From positions 1-64,000 of the forward strand of contig NZ_VDUZ01000023.1 of NCBI RefSeq assembly GCF_008039615.1: 64,000 bases of DNA. Direction: 5' to 3'. This document shows positions 5,653 to 60,399 of the stretch, in pieces (positions within the stretch are counted from its first letter, which is position 1; each line of letters begins with the position of its first letter). A program made the position numbers and the translations under genes. Under the pieces are notes generated by a model. The model worked only from the letters and a program-made list of their open reading frames with translations. It was not told where the DNA came from and made no database searches. Origin of the DNA: Vineibacter terrae (GTDB taxonomy: Bacteria; Pseudomonadota; Alphaproteobacteria; Reyranellales; Reyranellaceae).

Positions 5653-6234
5653 ATGTCGACCGTGACGCATGATCAAGACAACTCGCGGACAGACAAAGGC
5701 TGGTATTCACGGGGATACCTTCCCCACTTCGACGGCACCGGCATAGTCCAGACCGTCGTGTTTCGACTGCACGACAGCGTGCCACTGCATTTGCGGCAGC
5801 AACCGACGCCGCGAGAAGTGGAGCGTGCTTTCGATGCCGTTCTGGACTCCGGCTTTGGCGCTTGCTGGCTGCAGGATCCCCAGATCGCCGACATCACCGA
5901 GCGCGCGCTGTTGCACTTCGATGGAGAACGCTGCAGGCTGATTGCGTGGTGCGTCACGCCGAACTATGTCCACGCGATGCTTGAAACATTGGCGGGCTAT
6001 TCCCTGCCCGCAGTCGTCCATTCCTGGAAATCGTTTACAGCGACAGTTGCAAACCGTTTGTTGGCACGCACGGGACCATTCTGGGCGCGGGAATTCTTCG
6101 ATCGCTACGTGCGCGATGATCGCCATTTCACCGCGGCTCGAAACTATATCGAAGACAACCCCGTAAAGGCTGGGTTGGCGACGCGACCGGGCGATTGGCG
6201 TTGGAGCAGCGCTCGTCATCGACTTCGCGAATGA
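5653..6234 (+). CDS. REP-associated tyrosine transposase (RAYT, Y1-type) with altered HUH motif
   Basis: This 193-aa protein is a Y1 single-strand transposase of the REP-associated class, which is thought to bind and cleave REP hairpins. It opens with the class hallmark WYSRGYLPHFD (17-27). The presumed catalytic tyrosine is Y165 in the NYIEDNPVKAGL block (164-175). The metal-binding HUH motif, normally NHVH, reads NYVH (residues 104-107): codon TAT replaces CAT, a single C-to-T difference that removes the first histidine. That may inactivate cleavage or leave a DNA-binding-only protein. The gene sits between inverted REP copies at 5605 and 6234, and its TGA overlaps the right copy by one base. 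AGGA precedes the ATG. Base use is less G+C-rich than the neighbours, consistent with a mobile origin. Confidence 0.88.
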   Translation: MSTVTHDQDNSRTDKGWYSRGYLPHFDGTGIVQTVVFRLHDSVPLHLRQQPTPREVERAFDAVLDSGFGACWLQDPQIADITERALLHFDGERCRLIAWCVTPNYVHAMLETLAGYSLPAVVHSWKSFTATVANRLLARTGPFWAREFFDRYVRDDRHFTAARNYIEDNPVKAGLATRPGDWRWSSARHRLRE

Positions 6235-7889: not shown

Positions 7890-8156
7890 TCAGCGGCGGT
7901 CGATGATGGTGTAGTCGGCGTCGCTGACCCGCGTTCTCGTGGCAGGCACACGCACCGGTACAGTGCGGCGCGGGCGGGCCATGCCGCTGAACCAGTCCCG
8001 CGTCTTGTAGACCAGCACGCCGATCGCCACCGCAACCACCGCCGCGGCGACAATCGCCAGGCCGAACGCCAGCATTGCGATCACGCCGATGGCGACCACG
8101 AAGCCGCGCAGCCAGAGGGACAAGGGCAGACGAGACAAGGAGCGCAGAAAGGTCAT
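7890..8156 (-). CDS. Small membrane protein
   Basis: An 88-aa protein with a long hydrophobic stretch at residues 18-50 (one long or two short membrane segments), then a basic tail containing RPRRTVPVRVP. I chose the ATG at 8156, preceded by GGGGATT; the frame is open to 8228, but those 24 codons are not protein-like. It lies 82 bases downstream of the FHA-cyclase gene on the same strand and could be the last gene of that operon. No family recognised. Confidence 0.6.
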   Translation of the reverse strand: MTFLRSLSRLPLSLWLRGFVVAIGVIAMLAFGLAIVAAAVVAVAIGVLVYKTRDWFSGMARPRRTVPVRVPATRTRVSDADYTIIDRR

Positions 8157-8238
8157 TGTTGTAATCCCCGGAAGCCCGCCCATGCGCGCTTCCACGCAAT
8201 ATGTAGGGTGGCCAGGTGCCTTTGTCACCCCCTCCCAC

Positions 8239-9237
8239 CTAACCCCTTGAAACGACTACCTTAATCTCGCCCAGGCTGATGCGCGCGCCGTCGCGGAGGG
8301 GAATTGGCTGGTAGGGTGCAATGCGCTGCCCGTCGACCGCGGTGCCGTTGGTCGAGCCCAGGTCCTCGACCGTCAGCACGCCACCCGGGCCGGCCCTGAA
8401 GCGGGCATGTCGGCGCGAGATGCTGTCGTTGTCGATGGTGAGCTGGCAGTAGCGCTGCATGCGGCCGAACACCACACCCTCGTGCTGCTGCAGCAGGCCG
8501 CCGTCGAGGCGCATGTCCACGCGCGTGCCGGCACGGTCGGCGCCGACCAGGCGCCAGCCGACCGGCTCCGCCGATGACGGCGCATAGGAGATCGATGCCA
8601 GGGGCGCCGACACGGTCGGCGCGTGCGGCGCCCCGAGCGACGGCTGTGGCGCCGCCTGCGAGGGCGTCTCCATCGTGGCGGGGCGCTGCGGCGGCAGCGA
8701 TGTCGGCGCCTCGGCCCCCCGGTCGACGGCCATCACGCGATGCACCCGCACCGGCCGTGATATGTTCTTCACCTGCTGGTCGCCGAGATCGAAGAAGCCG
8801 AAGCCGATCTTGCCCTCGACCGCCTCGCGCACGCGCGCCGAGACGACGACGGTGCCCGGCTCGGCCAGCGCCTGGATGCGGGCCGCCACGTTCACCTCGT
8901 CGCCGAAGATGTTGTCGCCGTCGACGATCACCTCGCCGATGTTCAGGCCGATGCGCAGCAGGACGTGCCGCTGCGGCGGCCGGTCGGCGTTGCGCTGAGC
9001 CATGGCCACCTGCAGCTCCATCGCGCAGCGCACGGCGGCGACGGCGCTGGTGAACTCGACCAGCATGGCATCGCCGGCCGTGTTGACCAGGCGCCCAGTA
9101 TGGCGCCCCAGCGCCGGCAGCCAGACGTGGTCGAACAACGTCTTCAGCTCGCGGAAGGTCTGGGTCTCCGCCCCTTCCATGAGCCGGCTGTAGCCGACCA
9201 CATCGGCATGCAGGATGGCCGCCAGTCGCCGGTCCAT
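8239..9237 (-). CDS. Class III adenylate/guanylate cyclase fused to FHA domain
   Basis: A 332-aa two-domain protein. Residues 1-170 are a class III nucleotide cyclase catalytic domain: metal-binding D12 (HADVVGYS) and D56 (NTAGDAM), with transition-state residues N116 and R120 in NVAARIQ. A Pro/Ala-rich linker (175-225) leads to an FHA domain (about 228-330) with the phosphothreonine-binding hallmarks GR (258-259), SRRH (274-277) and GSTNGT (294-299). No membrane segment is seen, so it is probably cytosolic. It lies 7 bases after the transglutaminase-like gene and downstream of a Ser/Thr kinase gene, making the kinase or its substrates the obvious phospho-partner of the FHA domain. ATP versus GTP preference cannot be judged by eye. 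Both domain calls are firm. Confidence 0.92.
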   Translation of the reverse strand: MDRRLAAILHADVVGYSRLMEGAETQTFRELKTLFDHVWLPALGRHTGRLVNTAGDAMLVEFTSAVAAVRCAMELQVAMAQRNADRPPQRHVLLRIGLNIGEVIVDGDNIFGDEVNVAARIQALAEPGTVVVSARVREAVEGKIGFGFFDLGDQQVKNISRPVRVHRVMAVDRGAEAPTSLPPQRPATMETPSQAAPQPSLGAPHAPTVSAPLASISYAPSSAEPVGWRLVGADRAGTRVDMRLDGGLLQQHEGVVFGRMQRYCQLTIDNDSISRRHARFRAGPGGVLTVEDLGSTNGTAVDGQRIAPYQPIPLRDGARISLGEIKVVVSRG

Positions 9238-9244
9238 CGTGCTC

Positions 9245-10225
9245 CTACTCCTTCATCTCGAAAAAGGTGATCTCACCCGGCCGCTCGATATACCACGCCG
9301 TGCTGGGCGCGATCTGCCCCGGCGGCACGACCGCCGGACCGGTCGGCTCGAGCATCACCCATGGATGGCCGCCATGGGCGATCGTGACGTCGCCCTCCTG
9401 CGGCGGCAGGTCGACGGCCAGCGCCACGTGCTGCGGCAGGACGACGAACAGCAGGCGCCGCGCCGGCGTCAAGGTGCGCAGGATCGCCGCCAGCGCCACG
9501 GTCTTGCTGTCGCAATCGCCGCGGTTGAGCTTGAACATGGCCGGCGGTGGCGCGAACTCGATGCCGCCCGTGGTCAGCGGGCTGATCAGATCGTCGTAGG
9601 GGATCGCCTGCACGAAGCTCAGCGCCCGGGCCAGGCGGGCGCGCTCGTCGAGCCCGCCCGTCTGCGCCGACAACGCGCCTGCCACCGGCCGCAGAGCGGC
9701 CACATAGCGCAGCGCCGCCTCGGGATAGTCCATGTGGATGGCGTCGCCCACGGCGCGGCGCGCGTGCTTGCGCAGCCATTCCTGCCGGGCGGCCTCGATG
9801 ATGCCGTCCAGGCGCGCCTCGAAGGCTTCGCGCCGGGCGGTGCTGTCGGCCAGGACCACGAAGGAGACGCCGCCGCCGCGGGGGATGGTCTGCACGGTCA
9901 CGCCGGCGCGCCTGGCCTCCCGCTCCAGCGCTGCCTGGATGTGGCCGTAGAGGTTCGGCATCGAATAGTCGCGAAACAACGCCATCGCCGCGTCGATTGC
10001 GGCCGACGGCAGCGGGAACGACAGGCTGCGGGCCGCCCCGCCGGCATCCTTGAACGCGTAGGAGAACTGGACGTCGCTGCCGGCCGGCCGCCAGCTGAAG
10101 GCGCTCTGCTGCGCGCTGGCCGGCGACGCGCCGCACGCCAGCATGGCACCAAGCGCGGCTGCCGCCGCGACACGCCCGATCCGACCCCCACGCAAACCCG
10201 TCCCCATCAGCCGTGTCCATCTCAT
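9245..10225 (-). CDS. Transglutaminase-like cysteine protein, exported (copy B)
   Basis: A 326-aa protein with an N-terminal signal peptide (basic start, hydrophobic 17-31, cleavage likely after ASPASA at about 38). The C-terminal part has the Cys-His-acid arrangement of bacterial transglutaminase-like proteases: C238 in NRGDCDSK, H266 in PQHVALAV, E293 in WVMLEPT. It is a paralogue of the gene at 12366-13358, sharing QAIPYD, FAPPP, LNRGDCDSK and an aligned tail, and the two flank the kinase gene. The stop lies 7 bases before the FHA-cyclase start, so the two are almost certainly co-transcribed. Probable periplasmic thiol protease or amidase; the target is unknown. Confidence 0.75.
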   Translation of the reverse strand: MRWTRLMGTGLRGGRIGRVAAAAALGAMLACGASPASAQQSAFSWRPAGSDVQFSYAFKDAGGAARSLSFPLPSAAIDAAMALFRDYSMPNLYGHIQAALEREARRAGVTVQTIPRGGGVSFVVLADSTARREAFEARLDGIIEAARQEWLRKHARRAVGDAIHMDYPEAALRYVAALRPVAGALSAQTGGLDERARLARALSFVQAIPYDDLISPLTTGGIEFAPPPAMFKLNRGDCDSKTVALAAILRTLTPARRLLFVVLPQHVALAVDLPPQEGDVTIAHGGHPWVMLEPTGPAVVPPGQIAPSTAWYIERPGEITFFEMKE

Positions 10226-10289
10226 ACAAGCCCGGCGGCGGCGATGCCACCCCGCGCGCGCTCACAAGGCGATCGCGTATGGTCCTGTT

Positions 10290-10309
10290 GTCATCCCGAG
10301 TGGCGCTGC
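10290..10309. repeat. Half-copy of the GTCATCCCGAG dispersed repeat
   Basis: GTCATCCCGAGTGGCGCTGCG matches the left terminus of the dispersed palindromes elsewhere in the window, but no mirrored right half is present. It lies between the kinase stop and the downstream transglutaminase-like gene. Confidence 0.4.
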
Positions 10310-10332
10310 GCGCGGCCAGCAGAGACAGGAAC

Positions 10333-12270
10333 CTATTGGTGCCGCAGATTGAGGGTGCACTGGGGCCGGAAGGCATCGGGCCGGCCGCCGATGGTGCGCG
10401 CCGAGCCGGTGATGGCGATCGCATCACCTGCAGGACGGCCGCGCAGCGAGGCCATCCACTCGCGACCCTCCTGGCCGATCCAGGCCAGATCGGACACCGC
10501 CGAGCTGTCGCTGACCCGCAACGCGATCGTCATGCCCTGCACGGTCGCGCTGCCCTGCCCTGCCGCCACCCGCATCGTCACCGGTCCTTTCGGACCACCG
10601 GGAAAGCATTCCACCGTGCCGCTCCACGTGCCATCGACCCCGGCCGGGCGCGGCACCGGGGGAGGCGGCGTGGGCGGGATCGGCTCGGGAGGACGGCGGG
10701 CGGCCTCCTCCTGCCGCCGTCTCGCGTCGGCTTCGGCCTTGCGGCGGGCTTCATCCTCCTGCCGCCGCCGGGCATCAGCATCGGCCTTGTGCCGCGCGTC
10801 CTCAGCCGCCTGGCGGCGCGCCGCCTCCTCCTGCTGTCGCCGGGCATCGGCGTCGGCCTGGCGACGAGCCGCTTCGGCCGCCTGACGGCGGGCTTCCTCC
10901 TCCTGCTGGGCGCGGGCTTCGTCCTCGGCCTTCCGCCGTGCCGACTCGGCTTCCTGCTCGACCTGGGCCTGGTGCTTTGCCGCCGCCTCCTCCGCGGCGC
11001 GGCGCCGGGCTTCCGCCTCGGCTTGCTGGCGCGCCTGCTCGATGCGCTGGCGTTCCGCCTCGGCCTGGCGCTGCGCCTGCAGCTCGCGCTGCCGCGCCTC
11101 GGCCGCCAGGCGCTCGGCTTCGCGCGCCGCTTCCCGCTCCCGCACATCGCGCACGTAGAGGGTGCCACCGGCCACGCCGGCAACGACCAGCAATCCTACG
11201 ACCGCGGCCACGATCCATTTCCGGCTGCTCCCCGCCGGCCGGGCCGGCCTGGGCGGCTTGGCCGGCCTGGCCGACGCCGCGCGCGGGACATGAGTCTCGT
11301 CATCATGCGCCGCCCGCTCCGGCGGCGCATCGGCGCAGATCGGCGCGAACGCGGTCGGCCGCCGGCCGTCGAACACGGCCCGCCACGCCGCGATGGTGGC
11401 CGGGCGATCCTGTGCCCGCACCGCGAGGCCGGCATCGATGCCGGCCAGCAGCCCCGATGGATAGAGGCCGGCGGCAACGCGCGACGCCGGCTCCAGGCGA
11501 TCGCCCATCACCCGCTCCAGCGCGTTGGGCGGCATGCCGCCGGTGACGCACTGGTAGAGCGTGGTGGCCAAGGCATAGATGTCGGTGTAGGGCCCCTGGG
11601 CTGCCGACGTGAACTGCTCGACCGCGGCGTAGCCCGGCGTGTAGACCGCCGTCATCGCCTGCGTGCGGCCGGCGACCGCAGCCCGCGCGGCGCCGAAGTC
11701 GAGCAGGGTCGGGCGACCTTCGTCATCGAGCGTGATGTTCGACGGCTTGATGTCGCGATGCAGGATGCCGGTCTCGTGCACGCTCTGCAGGCCATCGAGC
11801 AGCGGCGGCAGGAGGCGCTCGATTATCTGCGGCGGCAGGCGGCCCTCACGCTTGAGGCGCGCCTCCAGCGTCTCGCCGCGCAACAGCTCCATCACCATGT
11901 AGGCGGTGCCGTTGGCCTCGAGGAAATCGTAGACGCGCACGATGGCGGGCGCGTTCTCGAACCGGGCCAGGGTCTGGGCCTCGGCCAGGAAGCGCTCTCG
12001 GCCCCAGCGGAAGTCGTCGGCCAGCCGGGTCGAGCGCGGCAGCACCTGGGTGCCGCCATGGCGCACGGCCAGCGCCACCGGCAGGTATTCCTTGATCGCC
12101 ACGGCGCGGTCGAGCTGGCGGTCATGCGCGCGGTAGGTGATGCCGAACGTCCCCTGTCCCAGGGTCTCGATCAGCTGGTAGCGCGCCAGCGGATAGCCGG
12201 CCGGCAGCGAGACGAGGTTGTCGCCGACGGCATCGCCTGAATGCACCGATCCGGTCCGCGTCTGGTCCAA
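10333..12270 (-). CDS. Membrane Ser/Thr protein kinase with coiled coil and extracytoplasmic C-terminal domain
   Basis: This 645-aa Hanks-type kinase has all core motifs: Gly loop GQGTFG (38-43), VAIK with K60, HRDIKPSN with D173 and N178, DFG with D191, and YAAVEQF in place of the usual APE. The kinase domain (about 30-300) is followed by a Pro/Ala-rich juxtamembrane segment, one membrane helix (352-373), a long Ala/Arg/Glu/Gln coiled coil (about 375-525), a proline hinge, and a compact C-terminal domain (about 540-645) starting DGTWSGTVECFPG. The topology puts the kinase inside and the coiled coil and terminal domain in the periplasm, as in sensor kinases. It sits between two transglutaminase-like genes and upstream of an FHA-cyclase, suggesting signal reception outside and phospho-dependent cyclase control inside (inference). 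Confidence 0.92.
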   Translation of the reverse strand: MDQTRTGSVHSGDAVGDNLVSLPAGYPLARYQLIETLGQGTFGITYRAHDRQLDRAVAIKEYLPVALAVRHGGTQVLPRSTRLADDFRWGRERFLAEAQTLARFENAPAIVRVYDFLEANGTAYMVMELLRGETLEARLKREGRLPPQIIERLLPPLLDGLQSVHETGILHRDIKPSNITLDDEGRPTLLDFGAARAAVAGRTQAMTAVYTPGYAAVEQFTSAAQGPYTDIYALATTLYQCVTGGMPPNALERVMGDRLEPASRVAAGLYPSGLLAGIDAGLAVRAQDRPATIAAWRAVFDGRRPTAFAPICADAPPERAAHDDETHVPRAASARPAKPPRPARPAGSSRKWIVAAVVGLLVVAGVAGGTLYVRDVREREAAREAERLAAEARQRELQAQRQAEAERQRIEQARQQAEAEARRRAAEEAAAKHQAQVEQEAESARRKAEDEARAQQEEEARRQAAEAARRQADADARRQQEEAARRQAAEDARHKADADARRRQEDEARRKAEADARRRQEEAARRPPEPIPPTPPPPVPRPAGVDGTWSGTVECFPGGPKGPVTMRVAAGQGSATVQGMTIALRVSDSSAVSDLAWIGQEGREWMASLRGRPAGDAIAITGSARTIGGRPDAFRPQCTLNLRHQ

Positions 12271-12365
12271 GAGGCGGCTCCCCTGCCGTCCAACGGCAGC
12301 CGCACGCTGCAGCCGGATTATGGCAAAATGAGTACCACCTCACAAGTAACGTTTTAGGAACCGAG

Positions 12366-13358
12366 TCACGCCCGCAGCGGCCACACCGAAAACTGCTGTC
12401 GGTCGAGGAACCTCGCCGTCTGCGGCGCCACTTGGCCCACCGGCGCCATGGCCGGGCCGGCCGCTTCGACGGCGATGAACACGCGACCATCGCGCCGCAC
12501 CCAGGCATCGCCCTCGCGCCAGGGCACGTCGACCGCCAGGATCGCATGCCCGGGCATGGTCGCCATGGCGCTGAGGCGGCCCGGCATCACCGCCCGCAGC
12601 ACACAAGCCAGCGCCACCGCCTTGCTGTCGCAGTCGCCCCGGTTGAGGTCGACCAGGGTCGGCGGCGGGGCGAAATCATAGCCACCGTTGCGCACGCGAT
12701 CGGTGAGCTCGTCGTAGGGGATGGCCTGGAAGAACGACAGGGCCAGCGCCAGCCGGGTGCGCTCGTCGGCATTGCCGGCGATCGCCAGCAGCGCCTGCGC
12801 CAGCGGCCACAGCGCCCGGACATAGCGGCGCGTGGCCGCCACGTAGTCGACCGAGATGGTGCTGCCATCGACGCGGCGCAGATAGGCGCTGGTGTAGCGC
12901 GCCCGTCCCTGCTCGATCGTGTCCTTGATCTGGCGGCCGGCCTCGCCCAGCAGAGGCGGCGGCCCGAGCAGGCGATAGGAGATACCCATCGTGTCGACCG
13001 CCATCGGGCGACGCTCGATCTGCAGCGTCACCTCGGTCCAGCCGGCGGCGGCCTGGCGCATGGCGGCTTCGAGATAGTCCCGCATGGCCTCGAGCGAGAA
13101 CTCGCGGAACAGGCGCGCGGCCTGATCGATCTCGGCCGCCGCCAGGGCAAAGCTGATGTCGCGCTCGCGCTGGTCGTGGTCGAGCCAGCGCACCCGGTAT
13201 TGCGTCTGCGCGCCGCGGCGGCGGCGCTCGAACGACAATTGCCGCGCCGCTGCCGGCAGCGGCGCGCCGGCCACGGCCAACGCGATGCCGCCCAGCAGCA
13301 CATCCCGTCGCCGAGGGCGGACGCCGCCGGGACCTGCCCCGGAAGACTGGGCCAGCAC
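12366..13358 (-). CDS. Transglutaminase-like cysteine protein, exported (copy A)
   Basis: A 330-aa paralogue of the gene at 9245-10225. The candidate triad is C243 (NRGDCDSK), H271 (PGHAILAV) and E298 (FIAVEAA). The N-terminus has PRRRDVLLGG followed by a hydrophobic stretch and AAARQ, resembling a twin-arginine-type export signal. The start is uncertain: the frame is open to 13478, but the extra codons translate a dispersed palindromic repeat (13371-13456), so I chose GTG 13358, the first start inside non-repeat sequence. It is the first gene of the kinase/cyclase operon, 95 bases from the kinase start. Probable periplasmic thiol hydrolase; function unknown. Confidence 0.7.
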   Translation of the reverse strand: MLAQSSGAGPGGVRPRRRDVLLGGIALAVAGAPLPAAARQLSFERRRRGAQTQYRVRWLDHDQRERDISFALAAAEIDQAARLFREFSLEAMRDYLEAAMRQAAAGWTEVTLQIERRPMAVDTMGISYRLLGPPPLLGEAGRQIKDTIEQGRARYTSAYLRRVDGSTISVDYVAATRRYVRALWPLAQALLAIAGNADERTRLALALSFFQAIPYDELTDRVRNGGYDFAPPPTLVDLNRGDCDSKAVALACVLRAVMPGRLSAMATMPGHAILAVDVPWREGDAWVRRDGRVFIAVEAAGPAMAPVGQVAPQTARFLDRQQFSVWPLRA

Positions 13359-13370
13359 GCATGGCCTGGC

Positions 13371-13456
13371 GTCATCCCGAGCGCAACGAGGGATCTCCTG
13401 CGGCAGGACGCACCGCGCGCCATTCGCGGGAGATCCCTCGCTGCGCTCAGAATGAC
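13371..13456. repeat. Dispersed palindromic repeat, GTCATCCCGAGCG family
   Basis: An 86-base imperfect palindrome with left end GTCATCCCGAGCGCAACGAG and right end CTCGCTGCGCTCAGAATGAC. It separates the crotonase gene from the downstream kinase operon. Related copies are at 24063, 50614, 53659, 55437 and 60264, with half-copies at 10290, 23971 and 33357. Confidence 0.85.
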
Positions 13457-13484
13457 GAGGGCGTCCCGGCGCGACCATCGGCGG

Positions 13485-14273
13485 TCAGCGCCCGCGGAAG
13501 ACCGGCTTGCGCTTGTCGTTCACGGCAGCGATGCCTTCGACCAGATCCTCGGACATGGCGCAGGTGCGGATGCGCTGGCGGATGATGTCCTCGTCGAAGA
13601 CGCTGCAGGCGATATCGTTGATCGATGCCTTCATGCCGGCCAGCGACAGCGGCGCCAGGCCGCTGGCGGTGGCGGCCAGCCCGTCGACCTTGGCCGCTAA
13701 CGCGGCGCGCTCGACCAGCCAGTCAAGATAGCCGATGCGGTGCAGCTCGTTGCCGTCGAACTCCTCGGCCAGCAGCAGGAAGCGCTTGGCGACGCCGGGG
13801 CCGAGCCGTTCGGTGAAGCGCCGCAGGCCGCTGGGATAGTAGTGCAGGCCCAGCCGGCCGGCCGGCAGGAAGGCGCGCATGCCGCGGATGCCGACACGGA
13901 AGTCACAGGCCAGCGCCAGGTCGGTGCCGCCGCCATAGACGCTGCCGTTGAGCGCGCCGATGGTGGGCACGCGGCTGGCCTCCAGGCGGTCGCACAAGAT
14001 CTCGAAGCTGTAGCGCCGGCCATCGCCGCCGCCATCGTCCGGCGACGCCGCGACGCCGGGCCGCAGCGATCCCAGGTCGAAGCCGGCGCAGAACGTCTTC
14101 TCACCGGCGCCGGTGACCACCAGCACGCGGAGATCCGTCGCCGCGTCGATCGTATCGAGATGGCCGATGAAGGCCTTGATATCGGCCGGCGCCAACCGGT
14201 TGTGAACCGCCGGGTTGTTGAGGGTGATGGTGGCCCGCGGGCCGTCGATGGTCAGCAGGATATGCTCGCTCAT
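13485..14273 (-). CDS. Enoyl-CoA hydratase/isomerase-fold protein without the hydratase glutamates
   Basis: A 262-aa crotonase-superfamily protein. The CoA/oxyanion signatures are present: CAGFDL (62-67) and NGSVYGGGTDLALACDFR (109-126). Aligning ACDFRVGIRGMRAFLPAG with the ACD-AGE-QPE block of true enoyl-CoA hydratases puts R130 and A138 where the two catalytic glutamates should be, so hydratase activity is unlikely. Another crotonase-type reaction (isomerase, hydrolase, decarboxylase) or a non-enzymatic role is possible. The gene is divergent from the acyl-CoA dehydrogenase at 14373 across a 99-base gap, suggesting a shared regulatory region and a linked fatty- or aromatic-acyl-CoA pathway. 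Confidence 0.85.
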   Translation of the reverse strand: MSEHILLTIDGPRATITLNNPAVHNRLAPADIKAFIGHLDTIDAATDLRVLVVTGAGEKTFCAGFDLGSLRPGVAASPDDGGGDGRRYSFEILCDRLEASRVPTIGALNGSVYGGGTDLALACDFRVGIRGMRAFLPAGRLGLHYYPSGLRRFTERLGPGVAKRFLLLAEEFDGNELHRIGYLDWLVERAALAAKVDGLAATASGLAPLSLAGMKASINDIACSVFDEDIIRQRIRTCAMSEDLVEGIAAVNDKRKPVFRGR

Positions 14274-24062: not shown

Positions 24063-24163
24063 GTCATCCCGAACGCCCCTTCGACAGGCTCAGGAGAGGG
24101 ATCTCCCGCGTCGGACGCACAGTGCGCCACTCGCAGGAGATCCCTCGCCACGCTCGGGATGAC
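24063..24163. repeat. Dispersed palindromic repeat, GTCATCCCGAACG family
   Basis: A 101-base imperfect palindrome, left end GTCATCCCGAACGCCCCTTC, right end CTCGCCACGCTCGGGATGAC. It lies just downstream of binding-protein paralogue 4, in the position where the other paralogues have an ACGGCCGCC hairpin, and may have replaced it. Confidence 0.85.
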
Positions 24164-24195
24164 AGTCGCGACTCATCTTCCACCGATAGGCGGTG

Positions 24196-50584: not shown

Positions 50585-50613
50585 TATCGTTCCTTCTGCT
50601 TCGGCGCGTGCCC

Positions 50614-50692
50614 GTCATCCCGAGCGCAGCAAGGGATCTCCCGCGAACGGAGCCTCGATCCTCGGGAGATCCCTCGCTGCGCTCGGGATGAC
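50614..50692. repeat. Dispersed palindromic repeat, GTCATCCCGAGCG family
   Basis: A 79-base palindrome with ends GTCATCCCGAGCGCAGCAAG and CTCGCTGCGCTCGGGATGAC and a short loop. It lies between the co-directional CoxL-like and hydroxyacid dehydrogenase genes. Confidence 0.88.
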
Positions 50693-50707
50693 GGGTTGGA
50701 CAGCGCG

Positions 50708-53059: not shown

Positions 53060-53922
53060 GACAGACTCCTGCCCAACAGGGTGATGGCGTATGGCGACGC
53101 AAGCTTAGAGGCGGCAGCGCCGGTTGCAAAGCGGCTCGACGCGCCCGTCCCTGTCCCGAGTTTCGCGGTGAAAATCGGAGACATGCGCGCGACCCGCCTG
53201 CGCGATTGGCGCCGTCGGCGCGATGATGGATTTGGGAACAATGACAAGGGCTTGCCGCCACCGTGGTCGCCGCTGCGCCGGCAGCGCGAAGCAGCGCGAA
53301 GCAGGCTCGATGGCGCCGAGTCCCGCGGGCACGGGCCGCTGTCTGCATTTTCGCGCCGGGAAATCGGGGACAGGCGCCACGCCCGATGCAACGGTCCGCG
53401 CGGCGGCAAGGGCGGTGACAACACCTTCACGTGTCGGCCTCGGGTATGATGGGGGGAAGCGATGGTGCTGCCTGCCGCGGCAGCCGGCGCAGCGCCCAGC
53501 ATGCGGCGCTGATGATTGACATGCTGATTATATCACGCTGGCCGATGGGGCGATACCGGAACGAAAGCAAACATTTTCGACTGCCCTGCCCTCTCGACGA
53601 TCCGCAGGGGAACAACGGAAGGCGCGGCACTGCAGCTTGCGCTCTGAAGATCAGCGCTGTCATCCCGAGCGCAGCGAGGGATCTCCTGCAAAAGACGCAC
53701 GGTGCGCCATTCGCGGGAGAGCACCGCGCGCAAAAGGAACCGAGGCGCCGCCCGAATGCGATGAGACGCCGGCTGCTGCGCTGCTGGCGTGACTGCGACT
53801 CCACATTCAAGAGCACGACGCGCCGTGGTCAAGGACATCGGCGCGGCAGTTCGCACGTTGAAGACTGCTCGCAGCAACATACATCCATAAATCAGGAGCT
53901 GATGAAGAGAGGAGAAGCATCC
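53060..53922. other. Long intergenic region between CoxL-like and catalase genes
   Basis: A 863-base divergent gap. It contains a truncated dispersed repeat (53659-53720) and no ORF that looks like protein; open frames read as Arg/Ala/Pro-rich or cross the repeat. TTGACA occurs at 53516-53521 within a locally A+T-rich patch (53505-53575) but has no -10 at proper spacing. The catalase promoter presumably lies in the last 200 bases. Possibly decayed sequence. Confidence 0.45.
53659..53720. repeat. Truncated dispersed repeat, GTCATCCCGAGCG family
   Basis: The left half GTCATCCCGAGCGCAGCGAG continues through ACGCACGGTGCGCCATTCGCGGGAGA but breaks where the mirrored right terminus should follow. 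The internal ACGCACGGTGCGCCATTCGC segment also occurs in the copies at 13371 and 24063, tying them to one subfamily. Confidence 0.7.
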
Positions 53923-60260: not shown

Positions 60261-60399
60261 GCTGTCATCCTGAGCGAAGCGAAGGATCTTTTGAGCGGTG
60301 CTGTCGCACGGGAACGATGGCGGCGTACGGCGTCTCGACGGCGCACGCCCGTGCGAAGCGACGGTCTAACAGATCCTTCGCTTCGCTCAGGATGACAGC
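60261..60399. repeat. Dispersed palindrome, GTCATCCTGAGCGAAGCGAAGG variant
   Basis: Perfect 29-bp arms (60261-60289 and 60371-60399) of the GCTGTCATCCTGAGCGAAGC type with an 81-base loop. Shares GTCATCC-TGAGCG with the other copies but carries GAAGCGAAGGATC in place of CAGCGAGGGATC, so it is a distinct subfamily. Confidence 0.85.

Follow-up and report, generated by a model that had tools for sequence, protein, structure and literature searches.

A conserved gene cluster around an FHA-fused nucleotide cyclase without the adenine-reading residue pair in Vineibacter terrae and its family

Mycobacterial PknB pairs with FHA proteins, and PpkA is the kinase of the type VI secretion threonine phosphorylation pathway. 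In proteobacteria, phosphorylation and an FHA protein are described as acting together in that pathway (PMC5995506), and the FHA and kinase genes of Mycobacterium tuberculosis cluster (PMC1262709). Nucleotide specificity of the cyclase part of Myxococcus Pkn2 is called unclear in the same article (PMC1262709). Of the periplasmic transglutaminase-like cysteine proteases, LapG answers to cyclic di-GMP through LapD, and the cell cycle controls HvyA (PMC4359373, PMC4241560). Here we describe a gene cluster of Vineibacter terrae, located within the first 64,000 nucleotides of contig NZ_VDUZ01000023.1 (assembly GCF_008039615.1; this whole stretch is called the window below), in which a membrane Ser/Thr kinase gene stands near the gene of a class III nucleotide cyclase with a C-terminal FHA domain. 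All genes of the cluster lie on the minus strand, and in the order of transcription they encode an enoyl-CoA hydratase/isomerase-family protein (hydratase), protein A, the kinase, protein B, the cyclase-FHA protein and a small membrane protein, with intergenic gaps of 126, 95, 107, 7 and 10 bases.

A preliminary description, made from the letters alone, had proposed that the kinase could gate the production of cyclic AMP (cAMP) or cyclic GMP (cGMP) by the cyclase, and that A and B, two exported proteins, could process a ligand or the kinase ectodomain. Its genes and coordinates are all present as given, with domain matches far above chance, and its interpretation as a whole is partly supported. 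The gene content, the conserved linkage, the conservation of the motifs and the predicted fold of B could be established directly. The part most worth following, which that description had not seen, is that the cyclase is without the residue pair that selects the base. Among the matches listed, no description of a kinase together with an FHA-fused cyclase was found in titles or abstract openings, subscription journals being mostly uncovered.

The FHA-fused cyclase

The cyclase-FHA gene (8239..9237) encodes both of its expected domains at scores over the curated Pfam cut-offs, i.e., Guanylate_cyc (E 2.8e-13, 50.3 bits vs 21.9) and FHA (E 7.8e-19, 68.3 bits vs 20.7). The cyclase domain (8767..9219) was delimited by alignment to Ma1120 and 3mr7 and by the family alignment, and the FHA domain (8269..8475; GR, SRRH and NGT motifs) by its Pfam match and the same family alignment. 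To compare residues we used an alignment of orthologues from 39 of the 70 cyclase loci of the family, 38 of them intact (the frame of G019 is broken), in which the window is counted once and outside which the later-fetched loci stand. The phosphothreonine-binding residues of the FHA domain are intact, with G, R, S, R, H, N and G kept in all 39 sequences and the last Thr in 36; matches among solved structures include the FHA domains of GarA, OdhI and TB39.8. In the cyclase domain, the metal-binding Asp12 and Asp56 and the transition-state residues Asn116 and Arg120 are kept in 38/38 intact orthologues. The Lys and Asp of Ma1120 and 3mr7 fall on Asn52 and Asn109 of the window's protein. Across the intact orthologues, the Lys site holds Gly (32) or Asn (6), and the Asp site holds Asn in 35 and Asp in three, all of these from the genus g3; the ATP-specifying Lys is found in 0/38, both residues of the pair are missing in 35/38, and the GTP-specifying Glu at the Lys site is likewise found in 0/38.

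Mycobacterial Rv1900c (LipJ) and M. avium Ma1120 are among the closest characterised cyclase domains to the window's. Rv1900c has Asn in place of the purine-site Lys. It is also described as atypical at a catalytic Asn (PMC4886424), and Ma1120 keeps Lys101 and Asp157, which are thought to contact N1 and the 6-amino group of adenine; swapping these two residues reduces adenylyl cyclase activity but does not abolish it (PMC4215837). Given that the Lys/Asp pair is absent from the window's cyclase while the catalytic residues are kept, this protein probably differs from a standard adenylate cyclase in its product or in the range of its substrates. The 'cAMP or cGMP' output of the preliminary description is doubtful, since the ATP-specifying pair and the GTP-specifying one are both missing.

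As a control, 41 cyclase domains were scored (L077 equals L156 and L073 equals L157, each counted once). Both Lys and Asp are missing from 8/8 distinct FHA-linked cyclases, whereas 27/31 unfused cyclases keep both (6/8 from the family, 21/23 from elsewhere), with the reservations that the control was chosen by high similarity and not at random, that its eight FHA proteins, the window's included, all come from the family, and that it did not include the cluster cyclases of g3, in which the Asp is retained. The genome of the window (8.76 Mb) has at least 24 class III cyclase matches, and Lys-less FHA-cyclases that share their genomes with further class III cyclases would make a natural series for the study of class III product range. 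Two unfused cyclases of this genome (L074, L075) have Gly or Ser at the Lys site and keep the Asp. One g3 genome carries an extra FHA-linked cyclase off the cluster (L080:1011-1511), with Asn at both purine-site positions.

Linkage of the cluster within and beyond the family

The locus set comprises 73 loci from 72 of the 75 family genomes, the window included, and 70 of these loci carry the cyclase; layouts were called with profiles built from the cluster proteins. The genomes outside the set (G001, G032 and G035) have no FHA-cyclase-like place among the matches listed, and in G003, G029 and G036 the cyclase profile match stands alone, and these three may represent truncated loci or cyclases of another kind. 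Because contig ends cut some loci, the counts of neighbours over the 70 loci are lower bounds: the hydratase is the steadiest neighbour (65), followed by the kinase (55), the small membrane protein (53 profile matches), a phosphoenolpyruvate (PEP)-mutase-family gene (48), a glycine-zipper gene (44) and an exported protein of the A/B type (24). All neighbouring pairs of matches counted in the family loci share one strand, including 51/51 cyclase-kinase pairs (with a median of 30 bases from one matched part to the other) and 23/23 pairs of exported protein and cyclase (median gap 14 bases).

The exact gene set of the window was found in its own genus g1 only, in four genomes, where the exported-protein genes flank the kinase on both sides (hydratase, A, kinase, B, cyclase, small protein); in one of them, G074, the cluster is divided between two contigs and the kinase is fragmented. 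In g3 the layout is hydratase, exported protein, cyclase and small protein, without kinase. The commonest layout of g4 runs hydratase, in some loci an exported protein, cyclase, kinase, glycine-zipper gene, in some loci a second kinase, PEP-mutase-family gene and small protein, and the single genome of g5 is similar, while in G040 the exported-protein gene is placed after the kinase and glycine-zipper genes, still in the cluster. B-type proteins occur in 26/75 family genomes and are located in the cluster in 26/26; for G020, G031 and one copy of G074 the contig shows the hydratase side of the cluster only. A relative of B in Reyranella sp. CPCC 100927 shares 75% identity with it over residues 43-326. 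That linkage is kept while gene order varies is the best evidence for a joint function of these genes.

The conserved one-strand neighbourhood is thus present in relatives, as the preliminary description would have it, but it was found in one family only in our samples and not across alphaproteobacteria. Outside the family, A/B relatives occur in 19 of 380 other genomes of the class (E <= 1e-8), and a cyclase or kinase of the cluster type was found in 0/20 regions of 3.6-15 kb around them, taken from 17 of the 19 genomes; G106 and G132 were left out, their A/B-type matches lying on contig fragments. Moreover, no full-length FHA-cyclase was found outside the family at E <= 1e-60 in the 380 genomes, the best six candidates per genome being scored. 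On this sample we therefore rejected a module common to alphaproteobacteria, the A/B relatives in the regions taken from outside the family being without these neighbours. The cluster is real, old and, within the limits of our sample, family-specific.

The kinase, the exported proteins and the remaining genes

The kinase gene (10333..12270) has a Pkinase match of E 7.5e-36 and 124.3 bits (cut-off 31.7), and the plan given in the preliminary description is borne out: a catalytic domain at residues 31-247 (11530..12180, the range of the Pfam match), one probable membrane helix at about residues 352-373 (11152..11217) with basic residues on its N-terminal side, an Ala/Glu/Arg-rich stretch, the latter two recognised by eye from the translation, and an all-beta, presumably periplasmic C-terminal domain (10336..10677). 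The first 41 loci gave 38 distinct kinases for alignment, the window's being included and counted once, and the catalytic Lys, HRD, Asn and DFG are intact in 38/38. For the C-terminal domain, AlphaFold2 predicts eight beta strands at a mean pLDDT of 88.5, and the alignment of 10 sequences has 14 invariant columns, with two invariant Cys. No clear structural match to it was obtained in either the Foldseek or the VIA comparison (best Foldseek E 0.024; best VIA Z 8.3, root-mean-square deviation [rmsd] 3.8, 101 aligned residues, small barrels). C-terminal domains of the window's type are also found in g1, g5 and part of the g4 kinases, mostly in the second g4 kinase, whereas in g4 the kinase next to the cyclase mostly carries another domain at its C-terminus, which suggests that the sensor part was swapped while the position of the gene was kept. 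A by-eye look had raised a nuclease as a candidate for the latter C-terminus, and it was dropped with an SNase match of E 0.16 in one of two sequences and none in the other. In the second kinase of a g4 locus (L048:6042-8162) PG_binding_1 was matched at E 6.3e-10, which points to a cell-wall ligand for some of the cluster kinases. Elsewhere in the window's genome, contig C4 has a second signalling-rich region at 88-120 kb (L208, L209), where three kinases match strongly and a fourth less so, and where a class III cyclase retains Lys and Asp and shows no FHA domain; contig C21 has two such kinases in tandem at 68-80 kb (L210). A defence system was also considered and rejected: the kinase matches many PADLOC kinase models, which we took as generic, and the cyclase matches a Pycsar cyclase weakly (E 5.5e-6).

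Proteins A (12366..13358, GTG start) and B (9245..10225), which share 41% identity, look exported, A by a twin-arginine-like signal sequence recognised by eye. The preliminary description of two exported transglutaminase-like proteins with Cys, His and Glu agrees with our results. Cys (GDCDSK), His (P-x-H) and Glu (LE-x-x-GP) are invariant in 23/23 aligned A/B-type sequences, A and B included (of 30 matches, G064, with a broken frame, G008, G020, G031, G039, G043 and G056 were left out), and the corresponding Cys238, His266 and Glu293 of B are also invariant in a separate alignment of 15 sequences. The AlphaFold2 model of B (mean pLDDT 86.5, pTM 0.83) has chains of LapG as its best structural matches (Z 8.6-9.4; top two alignments Z 9.4, rmsd 4.0, 141 aligned, and Z 9.0, rmsd 4.0, 138 aligned), and other transglutaminase-fold proteins, namely TglA, transglutaminase 3 and PNGase chains, follow at Z ~7-8; the best Foldseek match has E 7e-3 and probability 1.00. 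Judged by this predicted fold and by the ordered Cys, His and Glu, A and B most probably belong to the transglutaminase-like superfamily.

Sequence searches placed A and B less readily. The Pfam scan of both gave no match up to E 1, a search of B against solved structures gave none, and a search with the A/B profile gave chance-level matches only. Transglut_core was not over its cut-off in any family member scanned (at best 1/15, at E 0.069), and the score of a relative outside the family rises to 22.1 bits vs a cut-off of 23. A and B represent an exported transglutaminase-fold family missed by Pfam at its cut-offs in the members scanned. PF06035, the BTLCP family of LapG, has 0 matches genome-wide at E <= 0.001; comparing the BTLCP and A/B profiles puts Cys and His in register, though not significantly, and A/B have GDCDSK where BTLCPs have GDCEDY, and Glu in place of an Asp that is invariant in 11 BTLCP sequences. 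We therefore rejected a classification as classical BTLCP/LapG proteins, the fold being alike but the profile, motif and third residue different, and label A and B as having a transglutaminase/LapG-like fold. Among the exported proteins of the cluster, identity to B falls to 34%. In a tree with out-of-family relatives as its root, A joins the single copies of g4 and g5 (support 99/94) and B those of g3 (97/94), which places the A/B duplication before these genera; the genera later retained both A- and B-type copies, one, or none.

At the upstream end of the conserved order lies the hydratase gene (13485..14273, Pfam ECH_1 E 2.3e-25), which the preliminary description had missed. The small membrane protein, also expected there, is present just outside 8239-13358, at 7890..8228 with its probable start ATG at 8156, and is 71% identical over 92 amino acids to the copy of the nearest relative. 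Between the hydratase gene and that of A there is a repetitive extragenic palindrome (REP)-like element (13370..13457; inverted repeat with 33 nt arms, 88% complementary). One 27-base REP-like pattern has eight matches with <=3 mismatches in the window (mean 0 in shuffles), and these palindromes lie in this element and at 24138-24164, 50613-50693, 53658-53684 and 60263-60397. A gene of the Y1-transposase family, the kind linked with REP elements, is found at 5653-6234.

Interpretation and comparison with known systems

The best explanation, which we regard as about as likely as not, is that the cluster is a family-specific operon built on an FHA-fused cyclase that is phosphothreonine-gated and altered in its choice of substrate, most often together with a receptor kinase from the same locus, and with a periplasmic cysteine enzyme whose fold resembles that of LapG. 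A Ser/Thr kinase, encoded in the locus or elsewhere in the genome, would autophosphorylate when its periplasmic domain binds something; the FHA domain would dock the cyclase onto the phosphothreonine and so alter its activity; and the cyclase, which lacks the Lys/Asp adenine reader and keeps its metal and transition-state residues, would probably have a non-standard product or substrate range. A and B may be periplasmic cysteine enzymes, proteases or transamidases, with a target among the envelope partners of the pathway and not specifically in the kinase ectodomain. If this wiring is right, one FHA domain would join Ser/Thr phosphorylation and cyclic nucleotides, which are usually studied apart in bacteria. 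The bolder proposal that FHA-cyclases with a rebuilt base pocket make one or more cyclic nucleotides other than cAMP, gated by phosphothreonine and tuned from the periplasm by a non-BTLCP, LapG-like family, seems to us improbable; if true, bacteria would be able to pass Ser/Thr kinase signals on to a second messenger outside the standard set.

Several observations weigh against this operon reading. We infer kinase-FHA docking, gating, the chemistry of A and B and the cyclase product from the named families. No Foldseek match of B has E <0.001. The metabolic genes share the conserved order, which means that synteny by itself need not imply one pathway. The best evidence against the full circuit is the separate gain and loss of the kinase and the exported protein. 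We call a locus fully spanned when the hydratase is present at one end and the PEP-mutase or small protein at the other; of the 53 such loci, 13 carry the kinase as well as the exported protein, 8 the exported protein only, 30 the kinase only and 2 neither. The kinase is thus missing in 10/53 and the exported protein in 32/53, so neither is required for retention of the cyclase. In the plain table the two are negatively associated (Fisher p 0.009), and after correction for ancestry, with five independent pairs on well-supported branches only, association is absent either way. The exported protein is kept in 8/10 kinase-less spanned loci and absent from 30/43 kinase-bearing ones, i.e., it follows the cyclase cluster and not the kinase, and we rejected it as a partner of the kinase, the corrected test resting on those five pairs only; the earlier suggestion that exported proteins act on the kinase ectodomain is not supported in that form. 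Finally, of the 11 kinase-less genomes searched (those of the 10 spanned loci and G002, whose locus shows no match for the kinase or the small protein), G039 is without a related kinase genome-wide at E <= 1e-30, which argues against the kinase being essential in that genome.

These observations could suggest that the true unit is the cyclase with the exported enzyme, and perhaps the small membrane protein, the kinase being a common yet dispensable neighbour and the FHA domain serving kinases encoded elsewhere. The retention of the exported protein in 8/10 kinase-less loci fits this well, and at the same threshold related kinases are indeed present elsewhere in 10/11 genomes without a local one. 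However, the exported protein is itself the less constant member, absent from 32/53 spanned loci, with 7 presence changes along the best cyclase tree, of which branches with good support force 5 (5 changes for the kinase), and the kinase is the commoner neighbour (55 vs 24 of 70). We give this explanation little credence. Equally little can be granted to ordinary conservation of neighbourhood, in which unrelated genes stay together through slow rearrangement in one family: it would account for the metabolic genes in the order, for single members that can be missing and for the lack of such a cluster outside the family in the sampled genomes, but not readily for an exported-protein gene that shifts to before, after or both sides of the kinase with linkage and strand constant, or for cluster exported proteins that diverge down to 34% identity with B. 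Unlikely, too, is that the cyclase has lost catalysis and serves as a nucleotide-binding FHA adaptor which, like GarA or OdhI, modulates metabolic enzymes, perhaps the adjoining hydratase and PEP-mutase-family proteins. The purine site (Gly or Asn at the Lys position in 38/38 and Asn at the Asp position in 35/38 intact orthologues) and the constancy of these neighbours (hydratase 65/70, PEP-mutase 48/70) speak for such a pseudo-enzyme; nevertheless, the metal Asp pair and the transition-state Asn and Arg, kept in 38/38, would be unexpected if catalysis were lost, and purine-site mutants of Ma1120 are reported to retain measurable activity (PMC4215837).

Read as a family-specific operon on the FHA-fused cyclase, the cluster has parallels in several known systems. 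Like mycobacterial PknB with GarA/FhaB, or corynebacterial OdhI, it has a Hanks-type membrane kinase and an FHA protein, but it differs in the fusion of the FHA domain to a nucleotide cyclase, and, unlike PASTA kinases, the window's kinase scores 146 bits against the PASTA-kinase cut-off of 450. Coupling of a Ser/Thr kinase with a class III cyclase is likewise seen in Myxococcus Pkn2 and the TOMM kinase/cyclase fusions, the latter being weakly matched at the model level by the window proteins; those are single polypeptides, whereas the coupling proposed here would run via phosphothreonine between two proteins. With LapG and HvyA, A and B share a signal sequence, the transglutaminase fold (predicted, for B) and the register of Cys and His, and they differ in having no PF06035 match, GDCDSK for GDCEDY and Glu for Asp. 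In contrast to the FHA protein of the type VI secretion pathway, that of the window bears a cyclase, and no secretion genes were found among the cluster genes scanned. Unlike Ma1120, the window's cyclase has both purine-site residues replaced and an FHA domain attached. Taken together, the cluster is a variation on known kinase-FHA and kinase-cyclase signalling.

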